From NCBI RefSeq assembly GCF_001187785.1, contig NZ_CP012154.1:1482501-1546500 (forward strand): 64,000 nucleotides of DNA, in the 5' to 3' direction. This DNA comes from Wenzhouxiangella marina (GTDB lineage: Bacteria > Pseudomonadota > Gammaproteobacteria > Xanthomonadales > Wenzhouxiangellaceae). A model generated the notes under the pieces. The model saw only the letters and a program-made list of their open reading frames with translations, did no database searches and was not told the origin of the DNA. The position numbers and the translations under genes were made by a program. This document shows positions 48,039 to 59,656 of the stretch, one piece after another. Every line of letters starts with the position of its first letter. The stretch's first letter is position 1.

Positions 48039-48115
48039 GCGCCCGTAGCTCAGCTGGATAGAGTACCTGGCTACGAACCAGGCGGTCGGAGGTTCGAATC
48101 CTTCCGGGCGCGCCA
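48039..48115 (+). tRNA. tRNA-Arg (anticodon ACG)
   Basis: A 77-nt cloverleaf with 7-bp acceptor stem GCGCCCG/CGGGCGC, anticodon loop CTACGAA and encoded CCA. A terminator hairpin follows 6 nt downstream, so it is transcribed separately from the later tRNA genes. Confidence 0.95.
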
Positions 48116-48120
48116 TTTAA

Positions 48121-48147
48121 AAAAGCCCGCTTCGGCGGGTTTTTTTA
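48121..48147 (+). terminator. Rho-independent terminator after tRNA-Arg(ACG)
   Basis: GCCCGC, loop TTCG, GCGGGT followed by at least six T residues (stem from 48125). The upstream A-run makes it potentially bidirectional. Confidence 0.85.
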
Positions 48148-48150
48148 TGC

Positions 48151-48338
48151 GCGACCGGAAGGGTTCGAACCTCCGACAATCAACAATCGGTTCGAACCGA
48201 AGGCCGATAGGCCGGAGCTCGCTGGCGCGCAGCGCCAGCAATCCTTCCGGGCGCGCACGGAGCTGCAGGTCACTAGAAGCCCCGCTTCGGCGGGGTTTTT
48301 TCGTATATGGCGCGCCCGGAAGCCGAGTCGAAGCTCCC
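48151..48338. repeat. Sense and antisense fragments of the tRNA-Arg(ACG) 3' end
   Basis: Three pieces of the T-arm/acceptor end of the tRNA-Arg at 48039-48115 lie just downstream. At 48151-48177 an inverted copy matches about 25 of 27 bases; 48240-48256 is a direct 17-nt exact copy (AATCCTTCCGGGCGCGC); at 48309-48338 there is a degenerate inverted copy beginning GGCGCGCCCGGAAG. A second terminator (48279-48301) lies between them. The 508 bp between the two tRNA genes otherwise holds nothing I can support as coding. Confidence 0.75.
48279..48301 (+). terminator. Second terminator-like hairpin downstream of tRNA-Arg(ACG)
   Basis: GCCCCGC, loop TTCG, GCGGGG and six T residues. It mirrors the hairpin at 48121-48147, suggesting that the downstream segment is a partial duplication of the tRNA-terminator unit. 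Confidence 0.8.
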
Positions 48339-48623
48339 AGGTTCGATCAGTTGCGCAGCAACTGACGACGAGCGGCGCAGCCTATGAGGCCCGCAGGGTC
48401 AAAACCGCCTTCGAGCGGTCTTGATCGATCCCTCCGACCGTGTCCCACCCGCACTCTCGTCGAAGAGGTGCGTCCATCCGTTCTGGCGAGGTTCCGGCTT
48501 CTCCGTCGATCTTTCGGGCTGCAGGCCCATCGGGCGGCCCGGAATCCAAAAATATCGCCCGCAAATCCGGCCCGAGGAGTTGACCGAACCGCCTCCCATC
48601 CGTAACATTGGCCGGCTTGGACG

Positions 48624-58542: not shown

Positions 58543-59082
58543 ATGAAATTGGTCGCGATCTCAGGCAGCCTGCGCCAGGCCTCCTTCAACACTCGCCTTG
58601 GCCGGCTGATGGCCGATTTGTCGCCTGCCGGGTGCGAGGTGGTTCTGAAGGGCCTGCACGGCATTCCGCTCTACAACGCCGACGACGAGGAAGCCCGGGG
58701 CATCCCCGAAGCCGTGGAAGCCCTCAGAGGGGAGATCAAGGCCGCCGATGGCCTGATCCTGATCACGCCCGAGTACAACGGGGCCATGCCTGGCGTGCTC
58801 AAGAATGCGCTGGACTGGCTGACGCGGCCCGGTGAGGAAATGAAGCCCACCTTCGGGCACCGCCCCACGGCGCTGGCCGGTGCCACCCCGGGCGCCTGGG
58901 GAACCGCCATGGCCCAATCCGGCGCCCTGATCAATCTGCGCCAGCTGGGGGTGAACCTGTTCCCGGACTTCCTGCGGGTGTCCCGGGCGGGAACGGTGCT
59001 GGGAGACGGGGAGGTGGATGCCAAACTGAGAGATCAGGTGGGCGCCTGGCTCGAGCGCTTCGTCGAGTTTGCCCGCGGCTGA
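58543..59082 (+). CDS. NAD(P)H-dependent FMN reductase
   Basis: This 179-residue flavodoxin-fold oxidoreductase has an FMN phosphate loop SGSLRQASFNTRL, the flavin ring loop TPEYNGAMPGVLKNALDWL and GATPGAWGTAMAQ. It reduces FMN or quinone-like or azo substrates with NAD(P)H; the natural substrate is unknown. GGAG precedes the start at 58543. It is followed by the tandem repeat array on the opposite strand from the downstream tRNA. Confidence 0.88.
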   Translation: MKLVAISGSLRQASFNTRLGRLMADLSPAGCEVVLKGLHGIPLYNADDEEARGIPEAVEALRGEIKAADGLILITPEYNGAMPGVLKNALDWLTRPGEEMKPTFGHRPTALAGATPGAWGTAMAQSGALINLRQLGVNLFPDFLRVSRAGTVLGDGEVDAKLRDQVGAWLERFVEFARG

Positions 59083-59100
59083 GCCCGGCCTGCCGGCGGA

Positions 59101-59579
59101 GTGGACGGAGGGCGAATCGCGCCGTCGGCGCTCGGTTCGAACCTGATTGCTATTCGTCGCAGGTTCGACAGTGCAAACGGAGAGGCGCGGGGCTTGGTGG
59201 GGTGCGCGACAAGCGATGGAATGGTGCCCCGAGCAGGAGTGCTCGGTGGACGGTGTCCACCGGCCCTTCGGGCGTTCGCTTCGCGATCGCGAGCTCGCGC
59301 CGTCGGCGCTCGGTTCGAACCTGATTGTTATTCGTCGCAGGTTCGACAGCGCAAACGGAGAGGCCGGGGGGCTTGGTGGGGTTCGCGACAACGGATGAAA
59401 TGGTGCCCCGAGCAGGAGTGCTCGGTGGACGGTGTCCACCGGCCCTTCGGGCGTTCGCTTCGCGATCGCGAGCTCGCGCCGTCGGCGCTCGGTTCGAACC
59501 TGATTGTTATTCGTCGCAGGTTCGACAGCGCAAACGGAGAGGCCGGGGGGCTTGGTGGGGTTCGCGACAACGGATGAAA
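59101..59579 (-). repeat. Tandem 179-bp rtT-like repeats with tRNA-Arg 3' ends
   Basis: Two identical 179-bp units (59222-59400 and 59401-59579) and a truncated, diverged third (59101-59221) lie directly 3' of tRNA-Arg(CCT) in its transcription direction. Each full unit contains the last 19 nt of that tRNA, including CCA (59222-59240 and 59401-59419; the real tRNA end is 59580-59598), after a roughly 160-nt spacer rich in hairpins (for example TCGAACCTG/CAGGTTCGA and GGTGGAC/GTCCACC). The T-arm sequence also appears inverted in each spacer. No credible gene lies in this 497-bp gap. Confidence 0.9.
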
Positions 59580-59656
59580 TGGTGCCCCGAGCAGGAGTCG
59601 AACCTGCGACCTGCCGCTTAGGAGGCGGCTGCTCTATCCTACTGAGCTACCGGGGC
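59580..59656 (-). tRNA. tRNA-Arg (anticodon CCT)
   Basis: A 77-nt cloverleaf on the minus strand with acceptor GCCCCGG/TCGGGGC, anticodon loop CTCCTAA and encoded CCA. It is followed by tandem repeats of its own 3' end, and the rnd gene lies immediately upstream on the same strand. Confidence 0.95.

Follow-up and report, generated by a model that had tools for sequence, protein, structure and literature searches.

The tandem repeats that follow tRNA-Arg(CCT) in Wenzhouxiangella marina are rtT-type units. The class has as its core a module with four hairpins, roughly 45-100 nt long, which splits the T-loop of duplicated tRNA 3' ends at the nt 57/58 boundary. We consider it somewhat probable that the module is a T-loop-specific hairpin element, which was amplified as DNA via 19-nt tails and is transcribed as a passenger at some loci. 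The rtT repeats were reportedly described in 1991 and, to our knowledge, have stayed an oddity of tRNA operons without a settled function; the E. coli rtT RNA is freed by processing of the tRNA transcript. An anatomy shared over many tRNAs and taxa gives a comparative handle on what rtT is, as the comparison locates the boundary (nt 57/58) and separates the parts that follow the host tRNA from those that are common.

The array behind tRNA-Arg(CCT)

The intact tRNA-Arg(CCT) that anchors the array lies on the minus strand of the window (the whole stretch of 64,000 nt that was analysed) at 59580..59656 (ARAGORN; RF00005, 68.7 bits). It is followed, in its direction of transcription and on the same strand, by unit 1 (59401..59579) and unit 2 (59222..59400), which are both 179 nt long and identical letter for letter, and by unit 3 (59117..59221, end approximate), which lacks its 3' part from a point within the module's first hairpin. 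At the end of both full units, nt 58-76 of the tRNA recur without a mismatch as the 19-nt tail ACTCCTGCTCGGGGCACCA (59401..59419 and 59222..59240, minus strand). These results bear out the sequence-only reading, which had described a pair of identical 179-bp units plus a shortened one behind this tRNA. Read in the tRNA direction, a unit consists of a spacer, a 14-nt T-arm antisense, an A/T-rich loop GAATAACAAT, the T-arm 5' half CAGGTTCGA, a 74-nt cluster of four hairpins and ACTCCTGCTCGGGGCACCA. Since the last part is tRNA nt 58-76, the sense half and the tail together make up a tRNA 3' end with the module in its T-loop at 57/58; the module lies between TTCGA and ACTCC, at 59420..59493 in unit 1 and at 59241..59314 in unit 2 (minus strand). 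The complement of the tRNA T-arm, which the same reading had placed in the repeats, was found as the 14-nt sequence GTCGAACCTGCGAC in all three units, at 59513..59526 (inverted repeat I4), 59334..59347 (I3) and 59156..59169 (I2), all on the minus strand; in the predicted fold, this antisense spans the T-arm only and folds on the sense T-arm half.

No intrinsic terminator was found between tRNA-Arg(CCT) and its units. The neighbouring gene is RNase D-like, in line with the rnd named in the sequence-only reading, but units occur at many tRNAs and the adjacency therefore looks incidental. An assembly collapse or duplication, which had been named as a possible source of the repeats, is unlikely, since the genome is a single contig and the same structure is present in the separate assemblies of congeners. 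The open reading frames across the repeats were judged mechanical.

Relation to E. coli rtT

The E. coli K-12 tyrT locus reads GGGGAAGGATGAGAAGCTTCGAC-C-AAGGTTCGA-[hairpins]-ATCCTTCCCCCACCACCA, in which the copy again starts at nt 58. Like the array of W. marina, E. coli rtT (RttR; tyrT, RF00391) is built of units that measure about 178 nt, stand in tandem behind a tRNA and carry a 19-nt tail from nt 58, and it has the antisense arm, the sense T-arm half and four hairpins in the same order, the third of them of the CCCGAAGGGC type. The two arrays differ in their tRNA (tRNA-Tyr versus tRNA-Arg(CCT)) and in the GGATGAGAA motif of E. coli rtT, which was absent from the Arg and Thr units scanned, those behind tRNA-Arg(CCT) included. 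Several Ser units and one from Bacteroidales carry this motif. Closure of the whole fold by antisense-tail pairing occurs in RF00391 and is possible at the Arg(ACG) and Ser loci, whereas the antisense behind tRNA-Arg(CCT) is limited to the T-arm.

We built a covariance model, R1, from 20 Wenzhouxiangellaceae modules only, with the GGTTCGA flank included. R1 recovered all four rtT units of K-12 (E 5.2e-9, 1.9e-8, 2.9e-8 and 4.9e-6). In the W. marina array, it gave 90.2 bits in unit 1 (59410-59502) and in unit 2 (59231-59323), a score that is not independent because the unit is one of the 20 training sequences, and 29.5 bits over 59047-59145 at unit 3. In the opposite direction, RF00391 matched both full units at 16.2 bits (E 3.3, permissive threshold), which is below its gathering cut-off of 45 bits; membership in RF00391 was therefore rejected, and we class the units as rtT-type, not as RF00391 members. 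The same family model gave 27.0 bits with the Gln(CTG) unit of this genome and eight full-length matches in 64 kb of related loci, all eight on units (best 43.8 bits, E 3.3e-5, at L137). The test from R1 to K-12 rtT is stronger than that from RF00391 to the W. marina units. The likeness to rtT named in the sequence-only reading thus extends to the unit anatomy, the nt-58 boundary and covariance-model matches in both directions.

In Salmonella, rtT is a 175-bp VNTR (PMC2658671). According to PMC4986893, RtT is already known at several tRNAs in Enterobacterales and Pasteurellaceae, E. coli rtT and the Pasteurellaceae RtTs are expressed, and the RtT RNAs Arrc20 and Arrc21 of Actinobacillus pleuropneumoniae, beside Asn and Lys tRNAs, were detected on northern blots. 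These two resemble the present units in that they belong to the RtT family, adjoin other tRNAs and are expressed, but they are described upstream of the tRNA genes, in passages that do not give the T-loop anatomy. Literature searches for the wider class gave RtT in E. coli, Salmonella and Pasteurellaceae only. Judged by the searchable literature, the new points are the shared anatomy and its boundary at nt 57/58, the upstream and D-loop forms, and the occurrence in Wenzhouxiangellaceae, other families and Bacteroidales and at tmRNA.

A common anatomy at many tRNAs

Among 131 distinct tRNAs, 60 downstream tail copies started at nt 58 (39), nt 59 (16), nt 60 (4) or nt 61 (1). A copy of at least 13 nt of the own tail was found downstream of 43 of the 131 tRNAs, a rate that is biased as the loci were partly picked by pattern, compared to 4 of 1310 mismatched pairs of tail and locus; these copies are not due to chance. 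In 25 of 60 units, the longest antisense match to the own tRNA was 14 nt or longer, compared to 8 of 1200 mismatched pairings. The flanks of the module, namely the tail copy of nt 58-76 and the antisense arm, track the sequence of the host tRNA. The array behind tRNA-Arg(CCT) shows the class features, with a tail from nt 58 to the 3' end, a four-hairpin module in the T-loop and antisense of its own tRNA before the module. In upstream-type copies, the order is tRNA nt 1-57, module, about nt 58-66 and intact tRNA.

The window holds a second array on the plus strand, anchored by tRNA-Arg(ACG) (48039..48115, ARAGORN). A 29-nt antisense of the 3' third of this tRNA, 93% complementary, lies at 48149..48177 (inverted repeat I1), and the sense T-arm, a short hairpin module and a 17-nt tail copy (48240-48256) follow at 48187..48256 (R1 37.7 bits, E 6.6e-7). 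Behind them is a decayed second unit with its own terminator (48257..48436; 22.3 bits, E 0.008 at 48338-48436 with the broader model R2). Within 48116-48436, an intrinsic terminator separates the tRNA from the unit.

The whole genome (3.68 Mb, single contig, 41 tRNAs) provided an unbiased scan, in which 5 of 41 tRNAs had downstream own-tail copies of 17-19 nt from nt 58. An 11-nt copy was found at Ser(TGA), and three more tRNAs had degenerate copies (Ser(GGA), Gln(CTG) and Glu(TTC)). Downstream copies starting at nt 58 are present in the genome at Arg(ACG), Arg(CCG) (three copies), Thr(CGT), Ser(GCT) and Ser(TGA), and modules at about ten tRNAs (Arg x3, Ser x4, Thr x2, Gln, Glu). Every genome match to the module core at E < 0.01 was at a tRNA or a tRNA fragment, which supports the reading as a hairpin element. 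The same reading is supported by a displaced 3' half of tRNA-Thr(TGT), behind which an array of two units is still recognisable while the intact gene is about 8 kb off (L104, C1:3050000-3066000). This region looks like a tRNA-inserted island.

Insertions are also found outside the downstream layout. Upstream of the intact tRNA-Ser(CGA) are two 264-bp tandem repeats of a pseudo-tRNA-Ser (L097, oriented 2285-2800; C1:1641200-1641716, minus strand), with hairpin inserts in the D-loop at GGTCGA^AT and in the T-loop at GGTTCGA^AT, both of which are TCGA^AT. Serial module insertions at a single junction were found in unit 3 of Arg(CCG) and at Ser(GGA). A pattern match at 865108 (L039) looked like coding sequence by eye and was rejected as a unit. 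A duplication of a different kind was seen at tRNA-Leu(CAG), where a full 40-nt copy of its own 3' half lies 118 nt downstream (L101, oriented 2019-2176).

Spread among bacteria

About 85,000 species genomes were searched for the exact module-start pattern, which turned up at 53 loci. Nearly all are in Wenzhouxiangellaceae and adjoin tRNAs, three are in Bacteroidales, where a split tRNA-Cys copy lies ahead of the real gene, and the others are off tRNAs and look like chance. Among 393 Bacteroidales genomes, five had the pattern, one of them in the downstream layout with a tail copy starting past the T-loop. R1 matched 35 of 43 genomes of Wenzhouxiangellaceae and 24 of 368 other Gammaproteobacteria, in 19 families. 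All 26 R1 loci outside the family were, by eye, T-loop-split tRNA arms, toward which the GGTTCGA flank of R1 is biased, so that independent support comes from the neighbouring intact tRNAs, which most of these loci have nearby on the same strand. R2 matched 49 of 398 Pseudomonadota genomes, a result that extends the class and does not prove it, as R2 was trained on R1's own matches. Its matches include one family whose genomes measure 3.7-5.1 Mb and whose units follow Tyr, Lys and Pro tRNAs. Another matched family, from a second proteobacterial class, has them behind tmRNA and behind Ser, Gln and Asp tRNAs. The rtT-type units behind tmRNA (ssrA) use the T-loop of its tRNA-like domain (L328, L330, L333, L337).

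The search of related genomes for repeats of a tRNA's own 3' end, which had been proposed as a check, thus found them in Wenzhouxiangellaceae, other Gammaproteobacteria, a second class and Bacteroidales. Of the two options that the sequence-only reading had left, a wider class stands, since modules occur at many tRNAs in many genomes, and convergent amplification at one locus is not needed. The units beside tmRNA and in Bacteroidales also support the reading as an element. The split pseudo-tRNA copies and tail repeats carry a risk for annotation, as they could be miscalled as tRNAs or attachment sites.

Presence is patchy. At the orthologous tRNA-Arg(CCT) of congeners, 9 of 19 loci had units, 1 had a remnant and 9 had none. 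At tyrT, 0 to 5 annotated RtT copies were found in 40 listed E. coli records; E. coli TUM14697 and E20 had no RtT there and an intact tRNA-Tyr. In these two strains (L338, L339), desaturase genes lie directly downstream of tRNA-Tyr. The patchy presence at tRNA-Arg(CCT) and the varying copy number at E. coli tyrT and in the Salmonella VNTR (PMC2658671) argue for an element acting at the DNA level, and the shared anatomy, together with natural E. coli that lack rtT, makes the selfish-element and small-RNA views directly testable.

Conserved structure and the small-RNA explanation

The covariance analysis of the units, another proposed check, showed compensatory pairing, besides the recovery of K-12 rtT by the Wenzhouxiangellaceae-only model. 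In one alignment, 90.7% of cells pair and 92 cells were double-changed compared to 34 in shuffles; in an alignment of 82 modules, which was fitted to the model and so leans toward pairing, there were 414 double-changed cells compared to 132 in shuffles. The loops are strand-asymmetric, with GNA in 90 of 124 triloops and TNC in 0 of 124, and the sense strand folded better against shuffles (z -2.9) than the other strand (z -1.5).

These features are what the main rival, a regulatory RNA, would lead one to expect. In this explanation, the units would be transcribed together with the tRNA and cleaved at every CCA to give a functional class of small RNAs, whose folded form would act in trans, in tRNA metabolism or the stringent response, along the lines put forward for E. 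coli rtT. The rtT architecture, the strong compensatory pairing, the better folding of the sense strand, the strand-specific loops and the lack of a terminator between tRNA-Arg(CCT) and its units are all consistent with it, as are the northern-blot signals of the A. pleuropneumoniae RNAs (PMC4986893). However, an intrinsic terminator stands in the unit's own spacer, ahead of the module, in 25 of 54 units examined, many congeners and some natural E. coli strains lack the units altogether, and truncated and decayed copies are common. The spacer terminators in about half of the units and the 0 to 5 copies in E. coli disfavour an essential RNA, and we regard the small-RNA explanation as rather unlikely.

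Two further comparisons were set aside. The scarcity of G-U pairs in the stems was rejected as proof of folding at the DNA level, since it does not discriminate: the hairpins had 2.0%, and in neighbouring tRNAs the acceptor stems had 1.9% and the T-stems 6.9%. Grouping the modules by genome or by tRNA was likewise rejected as a sign of transposition because the differences in median identity were too small (0.458 for the same genome and different tRNAs, 0.443 for unrelated modules, 0.479 for the same tRNA across genomes); with gaps of this size, recent bursts were not seen.

Origin of the units

In the reading that we favour, a mobile or copied hairpin module would enter tRNA-like loops at TCGA^A(T), and the survivors would be those in which an intact tRNA stands beside a split partial copy. 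The 19-nt tails could then allow unequal exchange, by which units would expand or contract. Where no terminator intervenes, as behind tRNA-Arg(CCT), read-through from the tRNA may yield a passenger RNA that tRNA processing could release, as with E. coli rtT. An element at the DNA level is supported by the fixed insertion point in many unrelated tRNAs together with D-loop insertions at the same target, and by serial insertion at one junction and truncated ends. On the other hand, the module could not be linked to any transposase, integrase or reverse transcriptase, a cleanly joined empty/filled pair is missing from the evidence and module identity gave no recent bursts, while compensatory structure and strand-asymmetric loops are also expected of a selected RNA; these points count against the element reading. 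More tentatively, rtT may belong to a family of mobile hairpins, not recognised before, that would specifically target the T-loop (and D-loop) in tRNA-like sequences of Pseudomonadota and Bacteroidota, tmRNA among them, with the tRNA tails keeping the host tRNA intact; we hold this wider claim possible rather than probable.

Integrases that target tRNAs leave direct repeats from the T-loop to CCA. The units might accordingly be miniature integrative elements, non-autonomous and moved in trans by a tyrosine integrase with a T-loop crossover, in which the 19-nt tails would be attL/attR. The T-loop-to-CCA repeats fit this idea, and the tyrT flank holds other genes in E. coli strains without rtT. 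The upstream-type copies, however, do not fit a simple att product, and matches were absent from 50,697 records of phages, from 72,556 of plasmids and from the module-start pattern scan of viral contigs, which makes such an origin improbable. Known tRNA-targeting integrative elements share the tRNA 3'-end direct repeats and the T-loop boundary but differ from rtT-type units, which measure about 125-200 nt, have no evident gene and carry a hairpin module inside the T-loop.

Copying errors offer another route: template switching at tRNA hairpins could give inverted and direct tail copies, with the hairpins as neutral debris. A unit does read sense, antisense and sense of one tRNA 3' end, and at Ser and Gln loci, long palindromes extend across the terminator. 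Such errors leave unexplained the four-hairpin order that is common to E. coli and, in part, Bacteroidales, and we consider them a very improbable source.

Like the hairpin element favoured here, REP elements with their RAYT transposases have short palindromes and stable hairpins; the module differs in that it lacks their tag and is confined to tRNAs in its own genome. A RAYT/REP origin was rejected, since the Y1 transposase of this genome adjoins GTAG-type palindromes of other sequence, of the GTAGGTCGGGG type, of which the module has none. This transposase is divergent and RAYT-like, and the GTAG-type palindromes flank it (L235, C1:2855081-2855401).
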